Assembly (NCBI RefSeq): GCF_003065425.1 | Contig: NZ_CP026949.1 | Coordinates: 682,001 to 746,000 of the forward strand | Length of the DNA: 64,000 nt | Source: Mycetocola zhujimingii | Lineage (GTDB): Bacteria; Actinomycetota; Actinomycetes; Actinomycetales; Microbacteriaceae | Reading direction: 5' to 3' | In this document: positions 31,291 through 47,462 of the stretch, in pieces | How positions within the stretch are numbered: the stretch's first letter is position 1 | How the letters are laid out: every line of letters begins with the position of its first letter | Notes under the pieces: generated by a model | The model's input: only the letters and a program-made list of their open reading frames with translations | Told to the model about the DNA's origin: nothing | The model's database searches: none | Position numbers and translations under genes: made by a program

Positions 31291-32142
31291 TCAGATCGCG
31301 TAGTCCACGACGACGGGGGCGTGGTCGCTCCATCGCTCGGCGTGACTGGCCGCGCGGTCGACCCGGTAGTCCTTCACCGTTGCCGCAAGCTCGGGGGTCG
31401 CGACGTGGTAGTCGAGACGCCAGCCGGTGTCGGTGTCGAACGCGCGCCCGCGCTGCGACCACCAGGTGTATGGCCCATCGACCTCACCGGCCCAGGTGCG
31501 ACCGACGTCGACCCAGCCGAGGCCGGGGCCTGTCGTGCCGTCGACCCCCGTCACCTCTTCACCCCGAGGGCCGAAGAACCTGTCGAAGTACGCCCGTTCC
31601 CTGGGAAGGAAGCCGGCGTTCTTCCTGTTGCCTTTCCAGTTCTTGATGTCGAGTTCGCGGTGGCCGACGTTGAGGTCCCCGAGCACGACCGCATATTTCG
31701 AGTGCGAGGCAATCTCGGGAAGGCGAGCGGTCATGGCATCCAGGAACTTGTACTTCTCCACCTGCTTCGGGGTGTTGTCCTCGCCGGAGTGAACGTAGGT
31801 GGACACGACTGTGACGATCTGGTCGCCGACCTCGTAGTCGGCTTCGAGCCAGCGGCCCGCGCTGTCGAAGTCTTCGGCACCGAACTCGACCCGGTGAATG
31901 TGGGCCTTGGCGCGACTCACTATGGCGACACCGGCACGTCCTTTGGCCGTCGCCGGGTCGTGCAGGATGTCCCACTCAGGCCCCAGCAGGTTTTCGAGGT
32001 CACTCGTCGCGGCGCGGACCTCCTGGAGAGCCAGGATGTCGATGTTTGAGGCGTCGAGCCAGTCGCCCATTCCTTTTCGGAATGCCGCACGGACTCCGTT
32101 CGTGTTGACGGAGGCGATGCGAAGCGGGGAGGAAACTGACAT
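31291..32142 (-). CDS. xthA: Exodeoxyribonuclease III
   Basis: A 283-residue AP endonuclease/3'-5' exonuclease of the EEP superfamily for base-excision repair. Metal and catalytic residues appear in SVNTNGVRA near residues 11-19, ALQEVRA near 39-45, GDLNVGHRELD and the closing SDHAPVVVDY. Length is typical. The ATG has TAAACT six bases upstream and GGAGGA directly touching the ATG, too close to act as a Shine-Dalgarno, so leaderless expression is favoured. It lies 123 bases upstream of trpS on the same strand. Confidence 0.92.
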   Translation of the reverse strand: MSVSSPLRIASVNTNGVRAAFRKGMGDWLDASNIDILALQEVRAATSDLENLLGPEWDILHDPATAKGRAGVAIVSRAKAHIHRVEFGAEDFDSAGRWLEADYEVGDQIVTVVSTYVHSGEDNTPKQVEKYKFLDAMTARLPEIASHSKYAVVLGDLNVGHRELDIKNWKGNRKNAGFLPRERAYFDRFFGPRGEEVTGVDGTTGPGLGWVDVGRTWAGEVDGPYTWWSQRGRAFDTDTGWRLDYHVATPELAATVKDYRVDRAASHAERWSDHAPVVVDYAI

Positions 32143-32148
32143 TCCTCC

Positions 32149-32154
32149 AGTTTA
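32149..32154 (-). promoter_or_regulatory. -10 box for leaderless xthA transcript
   Basis: On the minus strand TAAACT ends six bases before ATG 32142. Confidence 0.5.
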
Positions 32155-32332
32155 GGCGAGGGCAGTGACAGAGCCCTGGACGGCAGGATGCAGAGACTGC
32201 CAGAGTCGGGCGGTTCGCGTCAATGGAATACCACATTGGGTGGATGAGGGGGCAGAATGGTGCGACAGGCGCGCTCCGTGGGCTGAGGGGTGGACCCAGC
32301 CTGTACTGCTTTGAGACGGTTTGAGGGACGAA

Positions 32333-33661
32333 GTGACGACAGTGCAGCGCGCAGGAATATCCGCCGACTACCGGTATGCCATGACAAACCAGGGCACGCC
32401 CTGGATCTGCATCGCCGGCGAATCGATACTCGTGGCCATCCGTACGCCCTCTGAGCCGGCTGTTGTCGAAGCTCTGTGGGCGCTGGTCCGTGACGGTTCT
32501 GCGACCTTCGACCAGGTGACATCGAAAGTGCCCAACGCGCGCGACGGAGCGCCAGCGTCCTTTGTCGTTGTCGAGCTTCTCGATGACGGGGACGAGGCAG
32601 GCGGACCGGCGATCACCCTGCTCGTGCACGGCGATGGTGTCCTCGATCTGCAGTCGAACGGCGAATGGCGTCGCGTCGCCCCTCCCGCCGGCCAGGCCTG
32701 GTTGCGTGACTCCGTCAGCGGTGTCTCTGCGCTCGCCACCGGAGCACTGACATCGGATCCCGGTTCCCCCGCCGGCGGAGTCTCCTTCCCGCTCGGCGCC
32801 GGAGTCATCGTCGCCAACCGCATCGACTGGTCGACTCTCGCCTCGCGAACGGATGCCGCAGCATCCGCCGTTGCGGCCCAGGCCGACCGCGCCGCGGCGA
32901 CGGTCGCTCCACCGGCGGAGGCCGACGCTCACGCAGCCCCGGCTCAGCCCCCCGTCGCGGAGCCCCCCGTCGCGAAGGTTCCCGCTGGCGCACCCGCTCC
33001 GGCTGCCGGAACGTCCCCGGTGCCTCCGGTGGACGTGTCCATCGCAACCGCTGCAGGCCAGCCGCCCGTTCCGCCAGCCCCGGCACCCGCAGGGACCCCG
33101 CCCCTGACGCATCGCCCCGCCGCCACCAGGCAGTACTCGCCCGCCGAGACGGACACCATCATCCGCCCGCCGGTTAAGCGGGTAAAGGCGCAGGACGACC
33201 CGCAGATGCGCCATGACGGCCAGACTGTGCTTCGCCGCGACATCGCACCCCCGATCGAGGACGAGACCGTGCTTCGCGAGGCCCCGCTCGTTCCGGATGA
33301 CCCGAAAACTCTTCTCTACGGTTTCCGCATCAACGGTGGCCAGGCCTACCCGCTCGACGCCGTGCACTACTTCGGCCGCAACCCCCGCCAGCCTCGCATC
33401 CCGCTCCCTGATCCGTCGCGCCTCGTTCCCGTCGTCTCGGCCTCGAAGTCGGTATCTGCGACGCACCTCGAGATCAAGCAGATCGGTGACTCGATTGTTG
33501 CCACTGACCTGAAATCGACAAACGGTACGTCGGTGATCGCCCCGCAGAGCCACTGGCAGCGCTTGCGCGCCGGCGAGAGTGTCGTCGTCATTCCGGGGAC
33601 GTTCATCGACATCGGTGACGGAAACGTGATCGAGATCCTGCCCCCCTGGCCGGGGGTATAG
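32333..33661 (+). CDS. FHA domain protein with Pro/Ala-rich linker
   Basis: A 442-residue protein. The first 165 residues form a domain I do not recognise. Residues about 180-260 are Pro/Ala-rich and probably flexible. The C-terminal 100 residues form a forkhead-associated domain with FGRNPR, SVSATHLEI and DLKSTNGTSV, which binds phosphothreonine peptides. The adjacent gene is a Ser/Thr kinase, so this is a likely phospho-partner or scaffold. The GTG at 32333 is chosen because GAGGGA lies a good distance upstream; a TTG at 32321 is possible. It opens the run of same-strand envelope genes that ends at 45772. Confidence 0.82.
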   Translation: MTTVQRAGISADYRYAMTNQGTPWICIAGESILVAIRTPSEPAVVEALWALVRDGSATFDQVTSKVPNARDGAPASFVVVELLDDGDEAGGPAITLLVHGDGVLDLQSNGEWRRVAPPAGQAWLRDSVSGVSALATGALTSDPGSPAGGVSFPLGAGVIVANRIDWSTLASRTDAAASAVAAQADRAAATVAPPAEADAHAAPAQPPVAEPPVAKVPAGAPAPAAGTSPVPPVDVSIATAAGQPPVPPAPAPAGTPPLTHRPAATRQYSPAETDTIIRPPVKRVKAQDDPQMRHDGQTVLRRDIAPPIEDETVLREAPLVPDDPKTLLYGFRINGGQAYPLDAVHYFGRNPRQPRIPLPDPSRLVPVVSASKSVSATHLEIKQIGDSIVATDLKSTNGTSVIAPQSHWQRLRAGESVVVIPGTFIDIGDGNVIEILPPWPGV

Positions 33662-33678
33662 AAGTTTTCGTTTCTCCA

Positions 33679-33684
33679 TAGAAT
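33679..33684 (+). promoter_or_regulatory. Putative -10 box before the kinase gene
   Basis: TAGAAT lies in the 133-base gap between the FHA gene and the kinase. Transcription would begin near 33691, leaving a leader of about 100 bases. No clear -35 is present. Confidence 0.35.
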
Positions 33685-33794
33685 GGAAGTAAGGCCAACG
33701 GGACCGCGGTAACTGTTCCTTCGTGCCCGTGAGCCGTCCTCTCGACGCGTAATTTCAGATTGTCGACGCGCAATTTCCAGAACGGGAGGACCAT

Positions 33795-35225
33795 TTGCGC
33801 CGCTTGCCATCGCAGCCTCCCGCTCTTCCCGGTTTCTCCTTTGTGCGCATCCTCGGGTCGGGTGGCTTCGCCGATGTCTTCCTGTACGAACAGGACAGTC
33901 CGCGCCGCCAGGTCGCCGTCAAGGTGATGCTCAGCGAGTACGTCAACGTCGAAGTCCGCCGGATGTTCCAGGCCGAGGCAGACCTGATGGCACAGCTGAG
34001 CCCTCACCCCGCGATTCTCACCGTGTATCAGTCCGGGGTCGCGTCAGACGGTCGCCCGTATCTGGTGATGGAACTGTGCTCGGCGACGATCGGTGAAACG
34101 TACCGGGATGACCCGTTGTCCGTCTCAGAAGCGCTTCGGATCAGCATCAAGATCGCCAGTGCCGTCGAGACCGCCCACCAGGCCGGGGTGCTGCACCGCG
34201 ATATCAAACCGGCGAACATCCTCATGACGGCGTACGGCAACCCGGTGCTCAGCGACTTCGGGATCGCCGGGACACTCGGTGAGTCCGTCATCGACGACAC
34301 GGTCGGAATGAGCATCCCGTGGTCGGCACCTGAGGTGCTGCACAGCGAGACGAACGGGACAATCGCCAGCGAGGTGTTCTCCCTCGCCGCGACAACGTAT
34401 TCGCTGCTCGCCGGTCGTGCCCCGTTCGAGGCCGTGCGACAGGACAACTCATCGGCCTCGCTGATTTCGCGGGCGAGCAAGGGCCGGCCCGAGCCCCTCG
34501 GTCGCGCAGACGTTCCCGACAAGCTCGAGCGCGTTCTTGCCCGCAGCATGTCGCGTCGGCCTGAGCAGCGCCCGCAATCGGCCATGGAATTCATCCGCGA
34601 GTTACAGGGCGTCGAAGCCGAACTGGGCTTCGCGCAAACGCAGCCTGATGTCGCGGTTCACGCCTGGGCGCAGGCCGCTGTCGTTGACGAAGCGGATAGC
34701 ACCCGCGTGCACTCGATTCGCACGGTGGATCCGGGTCGACGTCGTCGTCGATCAGCACAGGACGCATCCCAGAACCCCGGCGCGACCCGCGTTGCCGCTC
34801 GGGATTCCCGCGCAACGCCGGTCGGCGAGCGGAGTTCGGGAACGGGGGCTCCACTGCAGCACGGGCGCGCTTTCGTCGCTGCCATCGTCACCTGCAGCGT
34901 CCTCGTTGTGCTCCTGGCCGTGACCACGGTGTTCGTCCTGGTTCGGACAGCGGCGTCAGATGCCATCCCGACCGTCGCGGACGTGGCCGCAGACCTCCGG
35001 GGATCAAGTGTCGTGTTCAGCTGGCCCGACCCGGGAATCGCTGACAGGGATTCGTTCCAGATCCGCACGCCCGACGGCGCGGCATCCATCCAGAAATCCA
35101 CCGAATTCACCGTCGATGCTGAGCCGGGTGAACGGGCGTGCGTCACGGTTCGAGTGATGCGCGATGGTGTTCTCGGCCCGTCGAGCAGTGAGAAGTGCGT
35201 CGACGTTCCGGCTGGGACCGGCTGA
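33795..35225 (+). CDS. Membrane Ser/Thr protein kinase with extracellular FN3-like domain
   Basis: A 476-residue Hanks-type kinase. The Gly loop GSGGFADVF (residues 21-29), K43, HRD at 134-136, DFG at 154-156 and the SAPE motif are intact, so it should be active. A juxtamembrane basic stretch (GRRRRRS) precedes one membrane helix at about 357-386. The outer 85 residues resemble a single FN3-like beta-sandwich (VVFSWPDPG) rather than the PASTA repeats of PknB. The TTG start has GGGAGGA upstream. The stop codon overlaps the next ATG by one base, so it is coupled to the giant surface protein, a likely substrate or sensor partner. Confidence 0.9.
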   Translation: MRRLPSQPPALPGFSFVRILGSGGFADVFLYEQDSPRRQVAVKVMLSEYVNVEVRRMFQAEADLMAQLSPHPAILTVYQSGVASDGRPYLVMELCSATIGETYRDDPLSVSEALRISIKIASAVETAHQAGVLHRDIKPANILMTAYGNPVLSDFGIAGTLGESVIDDTVGMSIPWSAPEVLHSETNGTIASEVFSLAATTYSLLAGRAPFEAVRQDNSSASLISRASKGRPEPLGRADVPDKLERVLARSMSRRPEQRPQSAMEFIRELQGVEAELGFAQTQPDVAVHAWAQAAVVDEADSTRVHSIRTVDPGRRRRRSAQDASQNPGATRVAARDSRATPVGERSSGTGAPLQHGRAFVAAIVTCSVLVVLLAVTTVFVLVRTAASDAIPTVADVAADLRGSSVVFSWPDPGIADRDSFQIRTPDGAASIQKSTEFTVDAEPGERACVTVRVMRDGVLGPSSSEKCVDVPAGTG

Positions 35226-38200
35226 TGTTCGTGGCCTGGATCCGCAGGCACCGGTCCCTGCTCGCGACGCTGATGAGCGGCACAGTGATCTGTGCCCTCA
35301 TCGCGACGGTGGCGGTGATCTCTGACGGGTACCGGGCGCAGAAGCTCGAACTGGGCGACGGTGCGGTCTGGGTGGTCAATCAGGAGAAACAGGCGATTGG
35401 CCGCGCCAATACACAGGTCTTTGAACTGAACACGGCTGTACGCGGTACCTCTTCGCAGATCGAGGTACTGCAGTCAGGAGAGACCGTACTCTTCGTCGAC
35501 CGGGTACGCAGCACCCTCGACATCGTCGATCCCACGACGTCAGAGATCACCGAGAGCGTCCCGCTGCCACCCGGTGAAGCGGCCGTTGCGCTCGGCACCG
35601 AACGGCTGGTGGTCGAGGCCGGTGGTGACATCTGGTTTGTCCCGCTGGGCGATCTCGCCGCATTCGATTCTGAGTCAGCGCCGGCGCTTTCACTCGGTGC
35701 GGATGCCGTCACCTCGGTCAACGCGGATGGCGACCTGTTCGTCTTCGCCCCGGAGACCAGCAGCGTGTACCGGGTGCCGGCAGACTCAGATGCAGCCACC
35801 GATGTGACCGAAGTGCCTGAACCGGCCGGCGGGGTTCAATTGACGTCCGTTGGCGAGGACTTCGTGCTCCTCGATGAAGCGGAATCCAGCGTTCTGTTCA
35901 ACGGACGCACGGTGCAGCTCCCTGTCGCAACCGGGGCGCGACTGCAGGCCGCTTCGCTGTCGGGTGACCGGGCTTTGGTGGGAATTGACGATGGCCTCGT
36001 GGCCGTCGACAGGAGGTCGGGAAACCTGCGGGTTCTCACCGACACGGCGACGGGCGCCGCGACCCCGCCCATGAGCGTGGGCGACTGCGCTTTCGGGGCG
36101 TGGTCGGATGGCTCGGTGTTCACCGAGTGTGCCGGCTCCGGTGCGATGTCCGCGATCGAGGGCGTCAGCGCCGGTGCTGATTTCGCCTTCCAGACCAACG
36201 GCGGCCATGTGCTGCTCAACGACGTCGCGGGCGGAACCGCGTGGGCTGTGCAGTCAGATAACCGCGTTATCGACAACTGGGACGACCTCATCGCTGTCGA
36301 CGAAGACGAACTCAAGGTTGAGGACAACAACGAAGACACGCCTCCCGAGTATGAGGAGATGCAGCAGCCCCCGACCGCGGTCGCCGACGAGCTCGGCGCG
36401 AGGCCCGGGCGCACGTCGGTGCTTCCTGTTTTGCTCAATGATTTCGATCCGAACGGCGACGTGTTGATGATCGACTCCGTTGCGGCGCTGCCGGAGAGCG
36501 AAGGCCGGGTCGACGTCGTCAACAACTCGCAGCAGCTCCAGGTCACCCTCGCTGCGTCTGCGAGCGGTGTCCACCGATTCGATTACACGATCTCGGACGG
36601 CCGCGGCGGAACAGCGTCGACGACCGTCACTCTGACGGTGCGCGACCCGTCAGAGAACGGGCCGCCCGCTCAGGTGCGGACGACCAAGGGGTCTGTTGCA
36701 AGTGGGGCCAGGCTCTCGCTCGCGGTCCTCGGGGACTGGATCGACCCGGACGGTGACCCGTTCTACCTGACCGAGGCCAGCGTCGCTGCACCCGACCTCG
36801 TGCAGCACACTCCTGACGGCACGGTGATCTACAGCGACGCCGGGGCCGGAGGCGCTCTGAAGGAGGTGGGGCTCGTCGTCTCGGACGGCCTGCTCGACGG
36901 TACGGGCGCACTCGCCGTCACCGTTGCGCCGGCCGGGAGCGTGCCCATCATCGCCGAGTCCTTCCCCATGATCGCGCACGCGGGCCAGGAACTCGAAGTC
37001 TCGCCGCTCATGCACGCTCGAGGCGGATCGGCCCCGCTCCGGCTCGCGAACGTGCCCGCAAAAGACGGCGCAACCATCACCCCGGACTATGACGGGGGAA
37101 CCTTCCGGTTTACGAGCGCCGAACCGCGCACCCACCACATCGACTTCTCCGTGACGGACGGGACGCAGACGGCGACAGCCACGGTTCGCATCGAGGTCAT
37201 CGCTCCGCCGGACGCGGGGACAAAGCCGGTCACAGTCCCTCACACGGTCTTCATCCGGGAGCAGAGCACCGAGACCGTCGACGTCCTGGCCGGTGATTTC
37301 GACCCAGCCGGTGGTGTTCTCGTACTCACCGGAACCTCCGACATTCCGCCGCTCTCCGGCATCCGTGTGGAGATTCTTGAACAGCGGATGCTGCGAATCA
37401 CGCTGACCGCACCGCTGGAGAGCCCGGTGTCGTTCAGTTATCGGGTCTCGAACGGAGTGGCCGATGCATCGGGCACGGTGACCGTTGTCGAGATCCCGAA
37501 CCCGGTAAAGAGGCAGCCACCCGTCGCCTTCCCTGACACAGTTTCCGTTCGTGTCGGCGATGCCATCGACATCCCGGTTCTCGCCAACGACACGCACCCG
37601 GATGGTGACCCGCTGACGCTCGCCCCCGAACTCGCCGGTGCGCTGCCCGATGGCGGTGGGCTGCTGTTCACGGCGGGGAACGTGCTGAGATACCTGGCAC
37701 CGGAGACGCCGGGCAACTACACCGCGTCGTACAGGGCAACGGCGCCAGACGGACAGTGGTCTGATGCGCAGGTGGTCCTCAACGTGCGCGAGGCCGATGT
37801 CGCGACGAATGCAGCGCCAGCGCCGAAGACGGTGATCTCGCGCGTCTTCTCCGGCGAACGCGTCAGGATCTCGATTCCACTCGTTGGCATCGACCCCGAC
37901 GGTGATTCGGTGCAACTGATCGGACAGAGCTCGAACCCAGGCAAGGGGGCCGTGGTCGGCGCCGGAAGCGACTGGTTCGATTACGAGGCCGGTGCATACT
38001 CGGCAGGAACCGACAGCTTCGAGTACACAGTGGTCGACGCGTTGGGCAAGCAGGCGACGGGACTCGTACGCATCGGGATCAGCGCCAAACTCGATGGCTC
38101 ACGCGTGCCAACAGCGACACCGGATGAAGTCCTGACGCGCCCGGGGTCGAGCGTCGCCGTCCGGGTCCTGGCCAACGACTCAGACCCCGACGGCGGGGCG

Positions 38201-41047
38201 CTCACCGTGACGAGCGTCGAGCCGACGGGAGAAGGAGCGCGCGCGGTCATCGACGGCGAGATCGTCCGTGTCACGGTTCCCAAGGGTGAGGGCCGGTACG
38301 GGTTCATCTACGAGATCCAGAACAAGGGCGGAAACACAGCGAGCACCTTCCTCACCGTCGTCGTGCGCAAGGACGCCCCGCTCGCACGCCCCCTCGCATC
38401 CGACGTTGTGCTCACGATCGATGAGATCACCGGCAAGTCCACTGTCGACGTGAACGTCCTGAAGAGCGTGTTCTGGGCGGATGGCCCCTCGTCAGAACTC
38501 GATGTCTCTGTAGCGGGCGGTTACGGCGATCGGGCCTCCGTGACGGCGTCCAAGCGGGTTCGGGTCGCCCTCGGCGCCGCGTCGCAGATCATTCCGTTCC
38601 GGGTGAGCAATCCCGAGGACCCGGATGTGAACGCCATCGCCTTCATCTGGGTGCCCGGTTTCGATGATGCGCTGCCGCAGTTGCGCACCGGCATCAAACC
38701 GATCAGTGTCGTCAGCGGAGAAGCCGTCGAGATCCCGCTCAACGATTACGTCATCGCTGCTGGTGGCAAGAGCGTCCGCCTGACGGATGCCGCCAAGGTT
38801 CGGGCGACGAACGCCAACGGCTCCGACCTGGTCATCGACCCAGCGACGTTGCGGTACACCAGTGCTGACCTCTATTTCGGCCCGGCATCCATCTCGTTCG
38901 AGGTCACCGACGGGGAAAGTGCCGACGATTCAAACGGGCGGGTGGCAACACTCGTCCTCCCGATCGAGGTGTCGTCCCGCGACAACCAGCCCCCCGTTTT
39001 CACCGGAGGGTCGATCGACTTCGAGCCGAGCCAGGTGAAGACCATCGACCTCACCAGGCTCACGACCTATCCGTACGACGATGACGTCGACGAGCTCGAG
39101 TACCGCGTGCTGGATCCACGACCGGCAGGATTCACGGTGTCGGTCTCCGGGCAGGAGCTCACGGTGACCGCGGCGGCCGATGTCGAGCTCGGGGCAACGC
39201 CCAGCATTCTTCTCGGGGTCCGTGATGCGGTGAACGACGGAGTCGCAGGCCGCATCCAGCTCACCGTGGTGCCGTCGACGCGACCTCTCGCTGTGCCGGC
39301 CGAGGATACGGTGATTGCGCAGCGGGGAGCGTCGACACCCGTCGATGTGCTCACCAATGACAGCGCAACTAACCCATTCCCCGGTTCGCCGCTTCGGGTC
39401 GTCGCCGTTCGCGGGCTGGACGGTGGCAACCTCCCGGCCGGTGTCAGTGTCGCGCCGAGCGCCGACAACTCCCGGTTGACGGTCACCGTTGCACAGGACG
39501 CGGCGGCCATCGACACCTCACTGCAGTACCAGGTCGCTGACGCGACGGGCGACCCGGCGAGGTACACCTGGGGCGCGGTCCGGATCTCGGTGCAGGACCG
39601 GCCGGACCCCGTTTCGGCCGTGCGCGTGACGGGGTTCGGTGATCGGAAAATCTCCCTGGGCTGGACGCCGGGCGCGGCCAATAACTCAGCCATCTCCGGG
39701 TTCGACGTCGAGTTGTTCCGTGATGGCACCCAGACATCGCTCGGTGTGACGACCTGCACATCCACGGCGTGTGACGTCCCCACAGCCGCCAATGGCAGGG
39801 CAAACGCGGTGCGGGTCGAGGTCAGCGCGCGCAACGCGAGGGGCGAGTCAGACCCGGTCCGCTTTGGCGACGCTGTGTGGTCGGACGTCATCCCCGCCGC
39901 TCCAGCCGGTCTGTCGGCAGCGCCGCTCGACGGTGCGCTGATGCTGAAGTGGAACCCGGTACCGAAACCGGGGCAGGGCAGCGACGTGACTAAATATGCG
40001 GTGACCGTCGGGGGAGCGGCACGCGAGATCAACGCGTCTGCGTGCTCCGCGACGTGCTCGCTACGGGTCGGCGACCTCAGCAATGGCACGACCGTTGAGT
40101 TCTCGGTGTCAGCGCGCAACGACGCACTCCCGGCGCTCGCCGCCTGGAACAGCGCGTCCGGATCTGGGAAACCGTTTGGCCCGCCGAGCCCCGGCAGGAT
40201 TACGGTCGACGCCAATCCGGAGAATGCAAGCGCAACTGTGCGGTGGGACGGGTTCCTGGAGAACGGAGATCCCATCCGGAAATACTTTGTCCAGCGGCTC
40301 ACGGTCAACTCCGTCCCTACCGGGGATCAATCGTGCTCCGGCTCGACTCCTAACCCGGTTCCCGGAGGGATAGTCGCCGCGCAACGGGAGACGGACGGGG
40401 CGGGGCGCGAGGCGACCTTTGGGGGCCTCGAGGGTGCGGACACCGTCTATTATTTCGTCGTATGGGGCTATAACGGAGCGGGGTGTGTATCGACAGTGGT
40501 GGCAACACGCACCGTCTTCGAAACCCCACCGTCGATCTCGCAGGTGGACGGTGGTATGGCGTACACCGACGCCCGCGCGAGCTTTGACTACGTCATTTCT
40601 CGCGTGAGTCCGACGGACTACGACTATTACAAGATCCGTTCGCTTGCCGGCGCGACGCCCTCGGAGTGGACTCGGTTCTCTGGCAACGGAACCCCGCGAA
40701 CCGTCCTGGGGCTCGGAACTGGTTCGGTTGTCAACTTCGAGATCGTGGGCTGCAGAGCGTGGGGGTCGTATGAACTCTGTGGCGGTTCAAAGACGGTGAT
40801 CGCCGACGAGCCTTCGGTGTCGCTGGTCCCGGCGGGCGTCCAATTCGACTTGACCACCCAGACGTTCAGCTGGACTGCCGACCCTCCCAACGGAGGTATA
40901 GCGGCAACCTACCGTTGCGGATCAGAGGGCGACTCCGCGGTTACGGTGGCCGACATCAACTCGTGTGTGCTTCCACCAACTCACTCCGGTCGGGCCTGGC
41001 TCGAGGTAACTGTCAACGGCCATACCAACACCTATTTCAGGCCATGA
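35225..41047 (+). CDS. Giant membrane-anchored protein with tandem ~95-residue repeats and FN3 domains
   Basis: A 1940-residue protein. Residues 11-33 form one membrane anchor with a short basic cytoplasmic start. Residues about 36-370 look like a beta-propeller of short strands. From about 382 to 1455 come tandem Ig/cadherin-like repeats roughly 95 residues apart, each with a VLxNDxDPxGD-like motif (seen near 400, 502, 687, 783, 890, 981 and 1375). From about 1457 two or more fibronectin type III domains follow (ISLGWTPGAANNSAISGF, LMLKWNPVP), then a Cys-containing C-terminal region. It should extend far from the membrane. The ATG shares a base with the kinase stop codon. No enzymatic motif was found; an adhesive or structural role is inference. 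Confidence 0.85.
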   Translation: MFVAWIRRHRSLLATLMSGTVICALIATVAVISDGYRAQKLELGDGAVWVVNQEKQAIGRANTQVFELNTAVRGTSSQIEVLQSGETVLFVDRVRSTLDIVDPTTSEITESVPLPPGEAAVALGTERLVVEAGGDIWFVPLGDLAAFDSESAPALSLGADAVTSVNADGDLFVFAPETSSVYRVPADSDAATDVTEVPEPAGGVQLTSVGEDFVLLDEAESSVLFNGRTVQLPVATGARLQAASLSGDRALVGIDDGLVAVDRRSGNLRVLTDTATGAATPPMSVGDCAFGAWSDGSVFTECAGSGAMSAIEGVSAGADFAFQTNGGHVLLNDVAGGTAWAVQSDNRVIDNWDDLIAVDEDELKVEDNNEDTPPEYEEMQQPPTAVADELGARPGRTSVLPVLLNDFDPNGDVLMIDSVAALPESEGRVDVVNNSQQLQVTLAASASGVHRFDYTISDGRGGTASTTVTLTVRDPSENGPPAQVRTTKGSVASGARLSLAVLGDWIDPDGDPFYLTEASVAAPDLVQHTPDGTVIYSDAGAGGALKEVGLVVSDGLLDGTGALAVTVAPAGSVPIIAESFPMIAHAGQELEVSPLMHARGGSAPLRLANVPAKDGATITPDYDGGTFRFTSAEPRTHHIDFSVTDGTQTATATVRIEVIAPPDAGTKPVTVPHTVFIREQSTETVDVLAGDFDPAGGVLVLTGTSDIPPLSGIRVEILEQRMLRITLTAPLESPVSFSYRVSNGVADASGTVTVVEIPNPVKRQPPVAFPDTVSVRVGDAIDIPVLANDTHPDGDPLTLAPELAGALPDGGGLLFTAGNVLRYLAPETPGNYTASYRATAPDGQWSDAQVVLNVREADVATNAAPAPKTVISRVFSGERVRISIPLVGIDPDGDSVQLIGQSSNPGKGAVVGAGSDWFDYEAGAYSAGTDSFEYTVVDALGKQATGLVRIGISAKLDGSRVPTATPDEVLTRPGSSVAVRVLANDSDPDGGALTVTSVEPTGEGARAVIDGEIVRVTVPKGEGRYGFIYEIQNKGGNTASTFLTVVVRKDAPLARPLASDVVLTIDEITGKSTVDVNVLKSVFWADGPSSELDVSVAGGYGDRASVTASKRVRVALGAASQIIPFRVSNPEDPDVNAIAFIWVPGFDDALPQLRTGIKPISVVSGEAVEIPLNDYVIAAGGKSVRLTDAAKVRATNANGSDLVIDPATLRYTSADLYFGPASISFEVTDGESADDSNGRVATLVLPIEVSSRDNQPPVFTGGSIDFEPSQVKTIDLTRLTTYPYDDDVDELEYRVLDPRPAGFTVSVSGQELTVTAAADVELGATPSILLGVRDAVNDGVAGRIQLTVVPSTRPLAVPAEDTVIAQRGASTPVDVLTNDSATNPFPGSPLRVVAVRGLDGGNLPAGVSVAPSADNSRLTVTVAQDAAAIDTSLQYQVADATGDPARYTWGAVRISVQDRPDPVSAVRVTGFGDRKISLGWTPGAANNSAISGFDVELFRDGTQTSLGVTTCTSTACDVPTAANGRANAVRVEVSARNARGESDPVRFGDAVWSDVIPAAPAGLSAAPLDGALMLKWNPVPKPGQGSDVTKYAVTVGGAAREINASACSATCSLRVGDLSNGTTVEFSVSARNDALPALAAWNSASGSGKPFGPPSPGRITVDANPENASATVRWDGFLENGDPIRKYFVQRLTVNSVPTGDQSCSGSTPNPVPGGIVAAQRETDGAGREATFGGLEGADTVYYFVVWGYNGAGCVSTVVATRTVFETPPSISQVDGGMAYTDARASFDYVISRVSPTDYDYYKIRSLAGATPSEWTRFSGNGTPRTVLGLGTGSVVNFEIVGCRAWGSYELCGGSKTVIADEPSVSLVPAGVQFDLTTQTFSWTADPPNGGIAATYRCGSEGDSAVTVADINSCVLPPTHSGRAWLEVTVNGHTNTYFRP

Positions 41048-41099
41048 TGGAGTTTAGGGAATACCGCGTGAACGCGGCGTCACGAAAGGCACAACCCGG

Positions 41100-42068
41100 A
41101 TGACAATGACATCAGAGCAGGCCACCTGGTTTGCGGGCGTGTGCGACCAGCTCGTTGAGAACGTCGAGCAGGTGCTCCTTGGCAAGAACCATGTGATCCG
41201 GCTGTCCTTCGTCGTGCTCCTTAGCCGCGGGCACCTCCTCCTCGAAGACGTGCCAGGCACGGGGAAGACCTCGCTCGCCCGCGCCATGGCAGAGAGCATC
41301 GCCGGCGTTGCCAGTCGAGTGCAGTTCACGCCGGACCTTCTCCCCGGCGACATCACCGGCGTGAGCATCTACGACCAGCGCAGCGGGAACTTTGATTTTC
41401 ACAAAGGCCCCATTTTCGCGAACATCGTGCTCGCCGACGAGATCAACCGTGCCAGCCCCAAGACCCAGTCAGCGTTGCTCGAGGTCATGGAAGAGGGGCA
41501 CGTCACCGTCGACGGAGTCACCCACCCGGTTGGCGCCCCATTCATGGTGATAGCGACGCAGAACCCGGTTGAGCAGGCCGGTACCTACCGCCTGCCGGAA
41601 GCACAGCTCGACCGGTTCATGATGAAGACCTCGATTGGTTACCCAGACCACCAGTCGACGATCCGGATCCTCGAGGGATCAGATCAGGCCCAGGCGACAG
41701 AACTGACCCCCGTAGTGCCCGCATCGACCATTGCCGAAATGACCCGGCTCGCGACGACAGTCCACGTTGACGCGTCGCTCAACGACTACGTCGCCAGGAT
41801 CGTCGACGGCACGCGGCAGGCCGCGGAGGTGAGGCTCGGGGCGAGTGTGCGCGGCGCGCTGTCGCTTGTGCGAGCGTCGAAAACGCTCGCGGCGGCATCC
41901 GGTCGGTCATTCGTGATCCCCGACGACGTCAAGTCGCTCGCGGACACCGTGCTCGCACACAGGCTCATTCTCGATGCCGAAGCGGAGTTCGACGGTGTGA
42001 ACCCCTCCAACGTCATCGCCCAGGTGCTCATCGACACCCCACCACCGCGCGACGCGGCTGCGGCGTAG
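41100..42068 (+). CDS. MoxR family AAA+ ATPase
   Basis: A 322-residue AAA+ ATPase. Walker A is VPGTGKTS at about residues 51-58, Walker B IVLADEINRA near 110-119, sensor 1 IATQNPVEQAGTY near 150-162, and the MoxR-type lid follows. MoxR proteins act as chaperones that load or activate partner proteins, often with a DUF58 or VWA protein, exactly the neighbour here. It lies 52 bases after the giant surface protein and ten bases before the DUF58 gene. The target is unknown. Confidence 0.93.
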   Translation: MTMTSEQATWFAGVCDQLVENVEQVLLGKNHVIRLSFVVLLSRGHLLLEDVPGTGKTSLARAMAESIAGVASRVQFTPDLLPGDITGVSIYDQRSGNFDFHKGPIFANIVLADEINRASPKTQSALLEVMEEGHVTVDGVTHPVGAPFMVIATQNPVEQAGTYRLPEAQLDRFMMKTSIGYPDHQSTIRILEGSDQAQATELTPVVPASTIAEMTRLATTVHVDASLNDYVARIVDGTRQAAEVRLGASVRGALSLVRASKTLAAASGRSFVIPDDVKSLADTVLAHRLILDAEAEFDGVNPSNVIAQVLIDTPPPRDAAAA

Positions 42069-42077
42069 GGCCGGGAC

Positions 42078-43481
42078 GTGGCCGGGCCGGGCGGCGTCAG
42101 GGAGGTGACGGCCGAAGACAAGAAGATCCAGCCGTCGCACACGGCGCCGACCCCTGCTCGGGCAACGCCGGAGGCAGGCAACGCCGTCGCCCCTCCCGGT
42201 GGCGCAAGGGACGGTGTACTCGCGGCCGGGGTGGTCCTGGCTATTCGCTTCGGACGCGCCGTTCGCGCTGCGATCGCCCGCTGGGCAAACGCCGCTGCCG
42301 TCGTGACCTGGCTCGGCTGGGCCGTTGTGGTGAGCGTCGTGCTTGCCTTTCTCGCCGGGTACGCGCTCGGCTGGCAGGAATTCGTTGCCGGGGCGTGGGC
42401 CGGCGCCGTTGTGCTCGCGGCTGCCGCTGTGTTCCTCATCGGCCGGATGAGCCACGAGGCGGTCCTGACACTGCCCGTCAACAGGATCACTGCGGGCGAG
42501 CGCGCCGTTGCGCAGATCGAGGTACACAATCCGTCGCGACGGCTGTTACCCGGTGTTCGGCTCGAGGTTCCGGTCGGCGAGGGAGTCGCCGGGTTCCAGA
42601 TCCCATCGCTTGGCCAGGGAGGCACACACGAGGACGTGTTCACGGTGCCTGGGCTTCGCCGAGGGGTGATTCCCGTTGGCCCGGTTCGAGTGGTGCGGAC
42701 CGACCCGCTCGGACTGGTCAGGAGGGAGAAACAGTGGGAAGAGCGGGTTGAGCTGTTCGTTCACCCCCGCACGATTCCCGTACCGAGTCTGAGCACGGGA
42801 TTCGTGCGCGACCTGGAGGGCAACCCGACTCGGGAACTCACCGCCACCGACGTGTCTTTTCACGCCATCCGCGAGTACATGCCCGGTGACGAACGCCGGT
42901 CGATTCACTGGAGGAGCACGGCAAAAACCGGGCAGTTCATGGTGCGGCAGTTCGAGGAGACCCGCCGAAGCCACCTCATGGTCGCGCTGAGTCTGGCGAG
43001 GGCTGATTACTCCGGCGACGAGGACTTCGAAATGGCCGTGAGCGTGGCCGGCTCCCTCGGCGTGCGCGCCATTCGAGACGCCAGAACGGTTTCGGTGGTG
43101 GCGAGCGAGTCGACCCCGGAGTTCGCGCGTCGCAAACTCTTCGCGATGAAGAACCTTGCCTCGATGAGTCCATCGCGCCTGCTCGACGACCTCAGCCGGG
43201 TCGAACCGACGGAGAGGGCCTTGAACGTCTCCGACCTCGCCAGGGTCGCCGCTGACTCGATCGTCGGCATCTCGCTCGCGTTCCTCGTCTGCGGGTCAGC
43301 TGTGACGCCGGCGACACTTCGCCAGGCGTCGCGGCACTTCCCCGCGGGCGTCGAGGTCATCGCCGTCGTGTGTGACCCCGAGATCGTGCCGAGCTTCAAG
43401 ACGGCGGGGGAGTTGTCGGTCCTGACCATTGGCTTCCTCGAGGACCTCCAGCAGGCGATGTCGAAAAGGACCGCGGCGTGA
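42078..43481 (+). CDS. DUF58 domain membrane protein
   Basis: A 467-residue protein. Two membrane helices lie near residues 74-125. The DUF58 signature is EYMPGDERRSIHWRSTAKTG near residues 272-291, followed by a VWA-like fold (HLMVALSLARADYSGDEDFE). DUF58 proteins commonly pair with MoxR and a transglutaminase-like protein, as here. The GTG at 42078 is used; a GTG at 42105 is an alternative. The end overlaps the next GTG by four bases, so the pair is translationally coupled. The role is probably in envelope assembly, by analogy only. Confidence 0.88.
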   Translation: MAGPGGVREVTAEDKKIQPSHTAPTPARATPEAGNAVAPPGGARDGVLAAGVVLAIRFGRAVRAAIARWANAAAVVTWLGWAVVVSVVLAFLAGYALGWQEFVAGAWAGAVVLAAAAVFLIGRMSHEAVLTLPVNRITAGERAVAQIEVHNPSRRLLPGVRLEVPVGEGVAGFQIPSLGQGGTHEDVFTVPGLRRGVIPVGPVRVVRTDPLGLVRREKQWEERVELFVHPRTIPVPSLSTGFVRDLEGNPTRELTATDVSFHAIREYMPGDERRSIHWRSTAKTGQFMVRQFEETRRSHLMVALSLARADYSGDEDFEMAVSVAGSLGVRAIRDARTVSVVASESTPEFARRKLFAMKNLASMSPSRLLDDLSRVEPTERALNVSDLARVAADSIVGISLAFLVCGSAVTPATLRQASRHFPAGVEVIAVVCDPEIVPSFKTAGELSVLTIGFLEDLQQAMSKRTAA

Positions 43482-45772
43482 GGACCCCGACGCCGTCCAC
43501 CCGGAACGCTCTGTGGAACACCGTGTTCACCGTGCTCGCCGTGGCCGCAGCGTCAGCGCTGTGGTGGCCGATCTACCAGGTGCCGCGCTTCATCACCGTC
43601 GCGGTTGTCGCGATTGCCATCGGGGTTGCGATTGTCATTCTCGGGCGGGCCCTGCGGTTACCCGGCTTCGCCGTCGTCGGAATAACCGTTGTGGCTTACC
43701 TGCTCGTCGGAGTCCCGCTCGTCTTTCCTGACGCAACCATCTTCGGGGTCCTGCCGACGTGGCAAGGCCTGGTCGAGCTCGTCACCGGCACTGCGAACAG
43801 CTGGAAGCAACTGGTCACCATCCTGCTCCCTGTCGGAACCTACCAGGGGCTGCTCATCCCGCCGCTCGCCGGCATCCTCACCGTCACAGTGCTCACGCTG
43901 TCGATAGCCCTGCGGACCAGGTGGACGGCGTTCGCCGTGGTCTGGCCGATGGTGCTCGGTGTGCTCGGTATCGTCTTCGGTGGGGAGATCGGCTGGGAGT
44001 CGGTGCCGCTCGGTCTCGCGGTCGCGGTCATCACGCTGGTCTGGCTGGTCTGGCTCGGTCGACACACGCGCAACAAGGGCCGTGACACGGATGTGGTCGG
44101 TGCCGTTCGCACGTCGCGGCGGGAACGCAGGCGTGTCGCGATCGTCAGCGGGTTGACCGCTGCAATGATCGTGGCCCTCGCGGCGTTCGGAGGCGCTGTG
44201 ATGGCATCCGTCGCTCCCGCAACCGCCGACCGCCAGGTCCTCCGCTCACTCATCGAGCAGCCGTTCAATCCACGTTCATACCCGAGTCCGCTGTCCGCTT
44301 TCCGGAGTTTCCACCAGCCGGACACCGCCGGCATGGAACTCCTCACCGTCTCCGGCCTGCCCGAGGGCGGGCGGTTGCGTATGGCGACCCTCGACTCATA
44401 CGACGGTGTTGTCTTTTCGGCCGGAACGGAGGAAGACACGGTCGGCTCCGGGACGTTCGTTCGCGTGCCGTACCGCCTCGACCAGCAGGCGAGCGGGCGA
44501 ATCGTCACTCTCGACGTGACAATCGCCGGCTACTCGTCCATCTGGGTTCCCGGCGCTGGACACCTCAGGCAGATCGACTTCGATGGTGCCCGCGCGGCGG
44601 GTCTCGCCGATGACTTTTTCTACAACGACATCACGGGAAGCGCGGCGGTCGTCGGTGGATTCGCCTCCGGTGACAGCTACCAGGTGGAATCGGTGGTCGC
44701 CGCAACGCCGTCTCTCACTGACCTCGGCCGGATCCGGCCTGGCCCTGACCCTGTCGACCGCTCAGTTGAACTACCGAGGGTCATGACCGAGCGGCTGGAG
44801 TCCTACACGGCCGGTATCTCGGGGGAGGGCGCGAAGCTCGTTGCGATGATCGATGGGCTCACGAGCGACGGCTACATCAGTCACGGCGTGGGGGATGACG
44901 AGCCGACGAGCCTCTCCGGACACGGCATCGACCGTATTACCACCCTGTTCACTGACCGCCCGATGGTGGGCGACGAGGAGCAATACGCCGTTGCGGCTGC
45001 GCTGATGGCACGCCAGCTCGGGTTCCCTGCGCGGGTGGTCGTCGGCTTCCTCCCTGCGGTCGGCCCTGAGTCAGCGGCGACACCGGTATCTGGCGACGAC
45101 ATCAGCGCGTGGATCGAGGTGCAGTCGAGTGACGGGACCTGGTTGACCGTCGACACCACCCCGCCGATCAGGGAGATCCCCGAGAAGGAACCGGACGAGC
45201 CGACAACGGTCTCCAGACCACAGTCCGTCGTGCAGCCGCCGATCGAGGAGCCCGAGACCGACGCAGAGCAGATACCGGCTGATGACAGCCTCGACGAGGA
45301 AGACGAACCACTCGACCCGCTGCTCGCTGCGCTCCTGCTGGTTGCGCAGGTCCTCGGTGGGCTTCTTCTCCTCGCCGCTGTGTTCGCCGCACCATTTCTC
45401 GCCGTGATCGCGGCGAAGGTCAGGCGGCGCACCCTTCGGCGCTCACGCCGCACACCGTCTGAGCGGATCCGCGGCGGGTGGCAGGAGTTCCAGGACACCG
45501 CGGTCGACTACGGCGTCCAGCCGCCGTCATCGGCAACCAGGCGTGAGGTCGCAGCGGCCGCGGGCAGCAAACGCGCGCTCGCGCTGGCATCCGTCGCAGA
45601 CCGTGCGACTTTCTCGCTTCAGAAACCGAGCGATGAGGACGCCGATCTGGTCTGGACGGCGGTGGACGACCTGCGACGTTCGTTCAGCCGGGGGCGTTCA
45701 CGCCGCGAACGGTTCAGAGCGGCAACCTCGCTGCGCTCGTTCGGAATCAGGCCGCGCCGCCCGTCGGCGTGA
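43478..45772 (+). CDS. Transglutaminase-fold membrane protein with replaced catalytic residues
   Basis: A 764-residue protein of the TgpA/DUF3488 type. About six membrane helices fill residues 8-240, then an extracellular segment with a transglutaminase core at about 490-560, a further membrane helix near 625-650 and a cytoplasmic tail of about 115 residues. In active relatives the core reads C-E-H-Y-A, AHAW and VDPT. Here it reads E500-E-Q-Y-A, I-S543-A-W and VD559TT, so the Cys and His are lost and only the Asp remains. The protein is probably a non-catalytic member acting in assembly or binding. The GTG start overlaps the DUF58 stop by four bases. Confidence 0.88.
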   Translation: MRTPTPSTRNALWNTVFTVLAVAAASALWWPIYQVPRFITVAVVAIAIGVAIVILGRALRLPGFAVVGITVVAYLLVGVPLVFPDATIFGVLPTWQGLVELVTGTANSWKQLVTILLPVGTYQGLLIPPLAGILTVTVLTLSIALRTRWTAFAVVWPMVLGVLGIVFGGEIGWESVPLGLAVAVITLVWLVWLGRHTRNKGRDTDVVGAVRTSRRERRRVAIVSGLTAAMIVALAAFGGAVMASVAPATADRQVLRSLIEQPFNPRSYPSPLSAFRSFHQPDTAGMELLTVSGLPEGGRLRMATLDSYDGVVFSAGTEEDTVGSGTFVRVPYRLDQQASGRIVTLDVTIAGYSSIWVPGAGHLRQIDFDGARAAGLADDFFYNDITGSAAVVGGFASGDSYQVESVVAATPSLTDLGRIRPGPDPVDRSVELPRVMTERLESYTAGISGEGAKLVAMIDGLTSDGYISHGVGDDEPTSLSGHGIDRITTLFTDRPMVGDEEQYAVAAALMARQLGFPARVVVGFLPAVGPESAATPVSGDDISAWIEVQSSDGTWLTVDTTPPIREIPEKEPDEPTTVSRPQSVVQPPIEEPETDAEQIPADDSLDEEDEPLDPLLAALLLVAQVLGGLLLLAAVFAAPFLAVIAAKVRRRTLRRSRRTPSERIRGGWQEFQDTAVDYGVQPPSSATRREVAAAAGSKRALALASVADRATFSLQKPSDEDADLVWTAVDDLRRSFSRGRSRRERFRAATSLRSFGIRPRRPSA

Positions 45773-45790
45773 GTCGCGGCCGCGGCGGGG

Positions 45791-45796
45791 TATGGT
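45791..45796 (+). promoter_or_regulatory. Putative -10 box for ptsI
   Basis: TATGGT lies 19 bases downstream of the previous stop codon and 25 bases before ATG 45822. It would separate ptsI transcription from the upstream envelope operon. Confidence 0.4.
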
Positions 45797-45821
45797 CGAA
45801 AGCACCGGAGAAAGGTGCACC

Positions 45822-47462
45822 ATGTTGCTGCGCGGCACTGGAGTCGGCCGGGGTATCGCGATTGGACCCGTCGTCCGAATGCCGGACCCGCTGTCCGAAC
45901 CCGATGAGAAGCGGCGGACGACCGACGCCGACAGCGAGTATTCGCGGGCGCGTGCCGCGCTCACCACAGTGGCTGCTGACCTCGCCGATCGGGCGGCGCT
46001 GGCGGGCGGTGAAGCCGAAGGCGTGATTCACGCGCAGGCGATGATGACCCAGGATACTGCACTCCTCGATGACGTTCGATCGAGGATCGAAGCCGGATCC
46101 ACTGCCGAGCGTGCGGTCTTCGAAGCGTTCCACAGCGTGAGGCAGTTGCTGCTGTCGATGGGCGGCAGCCCTGCGGATCGTGCCGTGGATGTCGCTGACG
46201 TCTCCCAGCGCGTCATCGCACAGCTCCGCGGAGTGGCACCGCCCGGTGTCCCCAACGTCGACCATCCGTTCGTTCTCCTCGCCAGTGATCTTGCACCCTC
46301 CGACGCCGCGATGCTCGACATCGGGCAGGTGCTCGGGCTTGTCACGCTCGGGGGAGGACCGACATCGCACACCGCGATCCTCGCGAGGTCGAAGGGAATC
46401 GTCGCTGTCGTCGGCGTCGCGGACGCCGCGGGAATCGACGACGGAGCGACGGTGCTCCTCGATGCGGGGGACGGCACCGTCACCGTTGCGCCGACGCCGG
46501 AGGAAATCGCCGCGTCGCGTGAGCGGCTCCTGGCACGCCGGGTCGCCGTGCCGGTCGGGCCGGGCACGCTCGCTGATGGCACCGGGATCGAACTGCTCGC
46601 CAACATCGGCAGCCCGGACGAGGCGGAGGCCGCCCTGCGCCAGGGCGCAGAGGGTATCGGGCTGTTCCGCACGGAGTTCCTGTTCTTCGGCGCGCGCACC
46701 GCGCCGACAGTGGCAGAACAGCAGGCCGTCTACCGGCGGCTGTTTGCAGCGTGCGAGGGCAAACGGGTGGTCGTGCGAACCCTCGACGCCGGCAGTGACA
46801 AGCCGCTGGCGTTCCTCGGAACGGGTGTGGAAGAGAACCCCGCGCTCGGGGTCCGCGGCATCCGTGCCCTTCGCGCCCACGAATCGGTCCTTCGCGACCA
46901 GCTCACAGCCCTCGCCGCCGCAGACGCCGAAACCGATGCCGATGTCTGGGTGATGGCTCCGATGGTCGCGGATGCCGATGAGACCGGGTACTTCGTGGCC
47001 CTGGCGCGCTCGCTCGGGATCCGGGTCGCCGGCGTGATGGCAGAGGTTCCCTCGTGCGCACTCATGGCGGGTCAGGTACTCGGGATCGCTGACTTCGTAT
47101 CGATCGGCACCAACGACCTCACCCAGTACACACTCGCGGCTGACCGGAGGCTCGCCGCTGTTGCCGGGTACTCGGACCCGTGGCATCCGGCCGTCCTCCG
47201 GCTGGTGAAGATGCTCGGAGACGCGGGGACCCAGTCGGGGCGCCCGGTGGGTGTGTGCGGGGAGGCAGCGGCGGACCCGATGCTGGCCGTCGTGCTCGTC
47301 GGGCTCGGAATCTCCAGCCTGTCGATGGCGCCGTCTGCCCTCGACGCTGTGCGTACCCAGCTGAGGCAGCACACACTCGAACACGCCAGGGCGCTCGCGG
47401 TGGCCGCGCTCGGCGCGTCGACGGCTGCGGAGGCACGGGCACGCGTGAGTGAACAGAGTTAG
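45822..47462 (+). CDS. ptsI: PTS enzyme I (phosphoenolpyruvate-protein phosphotransferase)
   Basis: A 546-residue enzyme I that transfers phosphate from PEP to HPr for sugar PTS uptake. The phospho-histidine is H183 in LGGGPTSHTAILAR. The C-terminal PEP-binding barrel shows FRTEFLFFG and IGTNDLTQYTLAADR with the catalytic cysteine region GVCGEAA. Length is slightly short of the 570 residues common in other bacteria. ATG 45822 has AGAAAGG upstream and begins family sequence at once; the longer open frame upstream overlaps the previous gene. No HPr gene lies beside it. Confidence 0.95.
   Translation: MLLRGTGVGRGIAIGPVVRMPDPLSEPDEKRRTTDADSEYSRARAALTTVAADLADRAALAGGEAEGVIHAQAMMTQDTALLDDVRSRIEAGSTAERAVFEAFHSVRQLLLSMGGSPADRAVDVADVSQRVIAQLRGVAPPGVPNVDHPFVLLASDLAPSDAAMLDIGQVLGLVTLGGGPTSHTAILARSKGIVAVVGVADAAGIDDGATVLLDAGDGTVTVAPTPEEIAASRERLLARRVAVPVGPGTLADGTGIELLANIGSPDEAEAALRQGAEGIGLFRTEFLFFGARTAPTVAEQQAVYRRLFAACEGKRVVVRTLDAGSDKPLAFLGTGVEENPALGVRGIRALRAHESVLRDQLTALAAADAETDADVWVMAPMVADADETGYFVALARSLGIRVAGVMAEVPSCALMAGQVLGIADFVSIGTNDLTQYTLAADRRLAAVAGYSDPWHPAVLRLVKMLGDAGTQSGRPVGVCGEAAADPMLAVVLVGLGISSLSMAPSALDAVRTQLRQHTLEHARALAVAALGASTAAEARARVSEQS

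Follow-up and report, generated by a model that had tools for sequence, protein, structure and literature searches.

What do six adjacent genes for an FHA-domain protein, a membrane Ser/Thr kinase, a giant extracellular protein and a MoxR-DUF58-TgpA set do together? An operon at positions 32333-45772 (+ strand) of the window, the whole 64,000-nucleotide (nt) stretch of Mycetocola zhujimingii NZ_CP026949.1 analyzed here, raises this question. The answer we favor, with roughly even confidence, is that it is a PFNA-type envelope operon in which a MoxR-DUF58-pseudo-TgpA module handles a membrane-anchored rod of fixed length under Ser/Thr phospho-regulation, by a mechanism that we infer. Its genes are as follows (aa, amino acids).

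32333..33661, + strand: FHA-domain protein, 442 aa; GTG start; Pfam FHA at 26.7 bits (cut-off 20.7).
33795..35225, + strand: membrane Ser/Thr kinase, 476 aa; TTG start; Pfam Pkinase at 1.5e-37.
35225..41047, + strand: giant protein, 1940 aa; ATG start; Pfam Big_9 and fn3.
41100..42068, + strand: MoxR-family AAA+ ATPase, 322 aa; Pfam AAA_3 at 2e-62.
42078..43481, + strand: DUF58 protein, 467 aa; Pfam DUF58 at 1.9e-12; N-terminal transmembrane (TM) hairpin by hydropathy.
43478..45772, + strand: pseudo-TgpA (Tgm), 764 aa; Pfam Transglut_core at 2.6e-11.

The initial annotation had placed the six genes correctly, including the base shared by the kinase stop codon (TGA, 35223-35225) and the ATG of the giant, which was verified in the sequence as a 1 nt overlap. 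Giant and MoxR are separated by 52 nt and MoxR and DUF58 by 9 nt, while DUF58 and Tgm overlap by 4 nt. The FHA gene lies 133 nt before the kinase gene and is therefore not tightly joined to the rest. By gene order and by matches to AAA_3, DUF58 and Transglut_core, the last three genes form a MoxR Proper triad (MoxR-DUF58-transglutaminase). No sigma-70-like promoter was found over 32000-46000 (0.9 in shuffled sequences), and the four terminator-like sites over the same interval, below the shuffle mean of 6.1, are not above chance.

The claim that no function was defined for this combination did not hold, since the PFNA operon of Bifidobacterium consists of these five genes, kinase to Tgm, in identical order. 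According to the accessible parts of PMC8430577, that operon reads pkb2-fn3-aaa-atp-duf58-tgm, joined in some species by prpC, a hypothetical gene and fha; the full eight-gene version is co-transcribed in B. longum GT15, and Pkb2 phosphorylates MoxR. The likeness extends to the length of the giant (1,994 aa for B. longum FN3, in the accessible literature) and to a kinase with a TM segment and an FN3-like ectodomain, and BLAST matches to kinase, giant, MoxR, DUF58 and Tgm were found in Bifidobacteriaceae loci (18 loci, of which L131 has no MoxR match; L and G numbers are our handles for loci and genomes). The window differs in having its FHA gene first rather than last, in lacking a PP2C phosphatase (prpC), in its non-bifidobacterial host and in the second, paralogous cluster of its genome. 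PFNA has been published as occurring only in bifidobacteria (PMC10688814, accessible parts). We found loci in eight other named genera; it is therefore the exclusivity claim that falls, not the membership of the window in PFNA. Elsewhere the operon has been likened to the mycobacterial moxR operon (PMC12067865, accessible parts).

The conservation of the arrangement was read in 82 loci, namely 80 neighborhoods of Tgm matches, the window and its second cluster; they were hand-picked from matches to the window Tgm, and clusters without Tgm are thus under-sampled. Of the 82, 58 hold a giant frame longer than 1500 aa. In these the gene order is conserved, contrary to the refuting outcome named in the initial annotation, with giant next to MoxR in 56/58, MoxR next to DUF58 in 56/58 and DUF58 next to Tgm in 58/58. 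The idea of a phospho-regulated envelope machine put forward in the initial annotation is partly supported in this respect: the genes form a single conserved unit, even if not one without a described counterpart. A kinase scoring above 90 bits accompanies 50 of the 58 giants (35 directly upstream of the giant, 10 elsewhere on the same strand, 5 on the opposite strand only), and an FHA-type protein is present in 51.

The operon is widespread in Actinomycetota, being found in Microbacteriaceae, Cellulomonadaceae, Micrococcaceae, Jonesiaceae and in genomes outside the class. With the window Tgm as query, and counting classical Tgm proteins too, matches turned up in 35 of 40 genomes (its own among them) and in at least 187 of 296 genomes across the class, where up to three candidates per genome were scored. 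Twenty of 24 other sampled Microbacteriaceae genomes carry a giant-bearing cluster (the giant is split over frames in G013 and cut by a contig end in G003); the four genomes without it include three of 0.9-1.5 Mb, and two 1.4-Mb genomes retain it. Among the matches listed in a survey of named loci, which took the best 80 of 537 relatives, are Bifidobacterium, Cellulomonas, Actinotalea, Microbacterium, Sanguibacter, Jonesia, Arthrobacter, Occultella and Pseudactinotalea; one of its two motif patterns itself excluded Cys, and its 79 loci are weaker evidence for the Cys loss described below than the genome-search alignment.

A profile of the N-terminus of the giant, which also detects short proteins, matched in 58/296 genomes of the class and 15/296 of the phylum. 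Four genomes outside the class (L230-L233) hold giant frames of 2121-2268 aa, each followed by MoxR, DUF58 and a Cys-less Tgm, with a kinase in 3/4. With up to six candidates scored per genome, the search of the class returned 51 matches in frames of at least 1500 aa, 46 of them with a listed Tgm within 17 kb downstream; as for the remaining five, Tgm was read in the locus itself in L240, L242 runs to a contig end, L241 is an orphan, and G219 and G291 have no listed Tgm. Three genomes (G252, G299 and G307) carry a tandem pair of giants upstream of a single Tgm.

A FastTree phylogeny of concatenated MoxR, DUF58 and Tgm (95 rows, rooted on 13 classical rows) gathers 76 rows in a single branch, fully supported locally and separate from the classical rows. 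All but one of the loci on this branch (75/76) hold a large giant frame, the other being L112, where the giant is broken. Bifidobacteriaceae (9 rows) are sister to the other 67 rows of the giant branch, and the window's family groups with the named Microbacterium rows.

What sets this branch apart is the state of its transglutaminase. The window Tgm has no cysteine in its 764 residues: Glu500 stands in the Cys column and Ser543 in the His column, as the initial annotation had noted in calling the protein TgpA-like without Cys/His, and the acid column keeps Asp559. The protein thus lacks the Cys-His-Asp/Glu set of an active transglutaminase or cysteine protease. The corresponding motifs read GDEEQYA and DDISAW in the window and GDEEQFA and EDITAW in the second cluster (L004), and GYCVHYA and DDLHSW in the classical triad L003 of the same genome. 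We aligned 169 distinct Tgm proteins, counting identical last 400 residues once and setting classes by hand. Cys occupies its column in none of the 149 proteins of the giant clade, whereas Cys, His and Glu are each kept in 14/14 classical triads without a giant; a third set of six proteins also has no Cys. In L165 the Cys column holds Ser by alignment, and a regular-expression match there proved false. Six residues round the dead site (G498, E501, Q502, R519, E547 and W555) are nevertheless kept in 76/76 rows. By this evidence the 'transglutaminase' of the clade is a pseudoenzyme, and the published enzyme label needs revision.

The core of the fold is retained. The closest solved relative of the window Tgm by sequence is 6g49, the TgpA ectodomain (E 1.2e-10). 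In the AlphaFold2 model (mean pLDDT 78.6, pTM 0.48), an N-terminal TM bundle is followed by an outer transglutaminase-fold domain, a last TM segment (611-650) and a helical cytoplasmic tail. The Cys column opens a helix in this model, as is usual in transglutaminases.

The loss of the active site goes along with the presence of the giant, or of its propeller-like start. A giant frame lies in the same stretch as 140 of the 149 giant-clade Tgm proteins. Of the nine exceptions, L109, L114, L164, L194, L205 and L207 are at contig ends, the giant of L059 is broken over frames, L112 has a 435-aa frame with the propeller, and L111 has none in 19.9 kb. Five of the six loci of the third set hold a protein with the TM-propeller start of the giant (frames of 713-1788 aa, two of them weak matches at 20-22 bits), and L117 holds none. 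None of the 14 classical loci has a giant-type propeller (best E 2.6). These sequences suggest that a dead TgpA nearly always sits beside a propeller protein, and that a live one does without (14/14).

Shorter TM-propeller proteins (frames of 627-1152 aa) also occur beside MoxR-DUF58-Tgm in other families and orders (L235-L239, L245-L249, L118 and L125), where Tgm sites read, for example, GTSEQFA. Seven of these proteins were scanned: six match fn3, three of them over the cut-off, and one matches SH3_3 weakly, under the cut-off. Such loci represent the system in a form that lacks the long shaft.

The giant is anchored at its N-terminus by a single TM segment with the N-terminus inside (11-36), of which about 10 residues (MFVAWIRRHR) lie in the cytoplasm by hydropathy. 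It continues with a predicted beta-propeller (47-350), an immunoglobulin-like (Ig-like; Big_9) shaft from about 380 to 1450, FN3 domains and a variable tip from about 1655. No TM segment was found at its C-terminus by hydropathy, and a C-terminally anchored protein is ruled out, the N-terminal TM segment being the only one. The assignment of 47-350 as a propeller is a prediction from the AlphaFold2 model, an all-beta repeat by the N-terminal TM helix with ten-residue mean pLDDT of 80-97 over 41-360, mostly above 90; the same region has weak sequence matches (best E 0.00057) to propellers, both designed and natural. An extracellular repeat protein had been annotated here. It is extracellular, but 'repeat' is not borne out at the DNA level, where near-identical repeats are absent and the longest family has 62-71% identity to its reference over 52 nt.

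The foremost rival is that the giant serves free-living cells in surface adhesion or in biofilms, aided by a dedicated secretion or maturation helper, with phosphorylation tuning its amount only; we think this possible but rather unlikely. The extracellular Ig/FN3 architecture and the variable tip, whose last ~250 residues are unconserved, fit such a protein, as does the adhesion reported for B. bifidum FN3. The shaft argues otherwise. Giants measure 1941 +/- 92 aa in bifidobacteria (65) and 2000 +/- 92 aa elsewhere (83), with a range of 1745-2383 (duplicates kept). Profiles of 95-residue pieces of Microbacteriaceae giants were searched singly in other giants, and for pieces 40-1559 the best matches fell within 95 residues of the same place in 1029/1033 bifidobacterial and 999/1008 other cases (132 giants, 10 of them duplicates). 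When the 122 distinct giants are taken, the pieces from 325-1559 found a match in 1529 of 1586 possible cases. The match lay within 60 residues in 1445 of them and farther off in 84; 18 of the 20 listed among these 84 come from five giants shifted as a whole by 61-79 residues. Between 420 and 1465 the drift has a median of +1, quartiles of -6/+3 and a range of -18 to +37 residues in 117/122 distinct giants, the other five having no usable match at one of the two pieces. It follows that no Ig unit of ~90 residues was gained or lost in 117/122. Repeat adhesins often vary in repeat number, unlike these giants. The anchor of the giant is N-terminal, and no C-terminal TM segment was found. A variable tandem-repeat adhesin is ruled out by the constant repeat number among relatives and the lack of near-identical DNA repeats.

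The window kinase has intact HRD and DFG motifs, a TM segment at 354-392 by hydropathy and a Pkb2-like outer part, an FN3-like domain of ~85 aa with two conserved Cys. The ectodomain keeps invariant P, F, W, D and R and the two Cys from Bifidobacterium to the window (13 hand-picked sequences). Among 89 kinases of giant loci, the HRD-type motif is found in 69 and DFG in 85; a TM segment follows the kinase domain in 79, the outer part has a median length of 104 aa, and the kinases of L072, L075 and L097 stop just past the TM segment. A PknB-type PASTA kinase is ruled out (NCBIfam NF033483 at 177 bits against a cut-off of 450, no PASTA match). Compared with the FN3 domains of the giant, the ectodomain gives weak profile matches (best i-E 0.0014), and Pfam fn3 is matched in 3/13 (best 0.0055); its sequence is FN3-like, but does not show a special kinship to the FN3 domains of the giant. 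The FHA protein has an N-terminal part without a family match, a Pro/Ala-rich linker and a C-terminal FHA domain with the binding motifs GR, S..H and NG.

MoxR of the window has intact Walker A and B motifs. Its residue 54, in the P-loop GTGKT, is Thr in 76/76 giant-clade rows and Val in 13/13 classical ones, a mark of the subfamily. In the MIDAS-like column of DUF58, Asp is present in 13/13 classical rows versus 26/76 giant-clade rows. RavA-ViaA and other MoxR-vWA pairs also set a MoxR AAA+ ATPase beside a vWA-related protein. The partner in the window differs, being DUF58, which has been linked to vWA (PMC12067865, accessible parts), together with the pseudo-TgpA.

The published reading of PFNA is a host-interaction device, with the giant as adhesin and cytokine receptor, the kinase as a sensor of host immunity and Tgm as an active enzyme. 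In bifidobacteria it can draw on binding of tumor necrosis factor alpha (TNF-alpha) by B. longum FN3 fragments in vitro (PMC10688814) and on reports of induction by TNF-alpha, B. bifidum FN3 adhesion and positive selection (PMC8430577, PMC10688814, PMC12607495, PMC6803598; accessible parts of each). As an account of the operon at large we consider it improbable: the operon also occurs in genomes outside the class, no Cys is found in Tgm in any bifidobacterial row examined, and the invariant residues of the kinase ectodomain are common to bifidobacteria and others. The non-bifidobacterial carrier genera are mainly environmental, from soil and plants. If such genera share shaft, dead enzyme and kinase ectodomain, host-immune sensing is unlikely as the original role of PFNA. 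Within the final 700 aa, 47/85 non-bifidobacterial giants carry a WSxxS-type 'cytokine receptor motif' (full WSGWS and WSAWS included), as do 63/65 bifidobacterial ones; these are raw counts, taken with a pattern looser than the published motif classes.

That Tgm might cross-link the giant to the wall through an alternative nucleophile seems very improbable. Ser (55/149) or Asp (50/149) in the Cys column and the kept core of the fold would suit it, but the same column also holds Ala (17), Gly (15), Glu (11) and Gln (1). With His in its own column in only 30/149 proteins and a variable acid column, no single triad could serve.

The genome of M. zhujimingii offers an internal comparison. It has four MoxR genes, in the window, L004, L003 and L005, of which L003 is a classical MoxR-DUF58-TgpA triad without a giant and L005 is a MoxR locus without a Tgm match. 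The paralogous L004 cluster reads FHA protein, kinase, 270-aa protein, giant (1745 aa), MoxR, DUF58, Tgm and FHA protein, with a PP2C phosphatase gene ~400 bases upstream (2437402-2437956). All 16 Big_9 matches of the genome fall within its two giants. The 270-aa protein (C1:2418001-2437000, 15381-16193, - strand) lies between kinase and giant, is absent from the window cluster and is found in other L004-type clusters; it has an FHA-like and a putative helix-turn-helix part, assigned by eye with no Pfam match, and is a possible link from phosphorylation to transcription. Chance neighborhood or housekeeping synteny without joint function, for which one could cite the 133 nt gap after the FHA gene and a kinase position that differs between clades, has next to nothing to commend it. 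Giant, MoxR, DUF58 and Tgm stay adjacent throughout the phylum as sampled, although their proteins share little identity, and the paralogous clusters of one genome kept the same order; for these four genes the conserved order rules it out.

The mechanism that we propose for the PFNA-type envelope operon is the following. The giant would stand as a rod through the cell wall. An Ig domain is ~4-4.5 nm long, and the 12-13 such domains expected from the length of the shaft would span ~50-58 nm, the scale of a Gram-positive wall. The MoxR ring may act via DUF58 on the pseudo-TgpA, a polytopic protein. The dead transglutaminase-fold domain that the latter exposes beyond the membrane would bind a polypeptide, probably the base of the giant or a peptide of the wall, but neither cut nor cross-link it; ATP hydrolysis in the cytoplasm would in this way drive the rod to insert, fold or be released. 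The FN3-like ectodomain of the kinase would read the state of rod or wall and set MoxR activity by phosphorylation, and the FHA proteins would gather the phosphorylated parts. Because the giant has only ~10 residues on the cytoplasmic side, it is unlikely to be a phosphorylation substrate; by predicted topology, the kinase could reach MoxR, DUF58, the Tgm tail or the FHA protein.

Several observations weigh against this proposal. The Cys-less triads L111 (G165:C2) and L117 (G122:C1) lack any giant or propeller over 19.9 kb, and conversely the orphan giant L241 (G029:C11:744001-763900), a 2030-aa frame, has no MoxR, DUF58 or Tgm in ~20 kb; the genome of this orphan also carries a full cluster. 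Eight of the 58 giant loci (two cut by contig ends, six 19.9 kb long) show no kinase above 90 bits, so that either the coupling of the kinase is not strict or its gene stands at a greater distance. Calcium sites are only modestly enriched in the shaft, and the tree, built with FastTree alone, drew warnings of uneven amino-acid composition for 25/95 rows. Contact of Tgm or MoxR with the giant is something we infer, and no experimental work on this cluster is known to us except in bifidobacteria. Finally, given the binding of TNF-alpha (PMC10688814, accessible parts), the operon may also have gained a host role, as a later use in gut species.

A bolder version of the fixed-rod proposal is a 'wall ruler' common to the phylum, which we put forward tentatively and hold to be doubtful: the rod, whose Ig domains keep their register from Bifidobacterium to other families and classes, would be raised by a MoxR-DUF58-pseudo-transglutaminase gate that ATP drives, with the kinase reading it through the FN3-like ectodomain. 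The cell could in this way gauge or adjust how deep or how tense its wall is, and bifidobacteria would have reused the tip for host contact.

Around the operon, the upstream neighbors are a glycerol-type set (FAD oxidoreductase, aquaporin family and FGGY kinase). Downstream, a gene for phosphotransferase system enzyme I (45822-47462, same strand) begins ~50 bases past the Tgm gene and may share a transcript with the operon.

No report of this gene combination in other actinobacteria was found among the papers listed by full-text searches of an open-access collection. New to the literature searched are the phylum-wide spread, the clade-wide pseudoenzyme, the length-locked shaft, the conserved kinase ectodomain and the short propeller form. 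The PFNA papers describe a bifidobacterial host-immune operon with a transglutaminase, and the FN3 protein has been proposed for therapy (title of PMC8430577). Both the transglutaminase label and the host-only reading need revision. For the common and unexplained MoxR-DUF58-TgpA triads, our results suggest a rule in which a live TgpA comes without the propeller and a dead one nearly always with it, L111 and L117 being the two exceptions seen among loci of sufficient length. Should PFNA be an ancient envelope machine, one whose enzyme is dead and whose rod has a fixed length, its function would have to be sought in the biology of the wall and of division.

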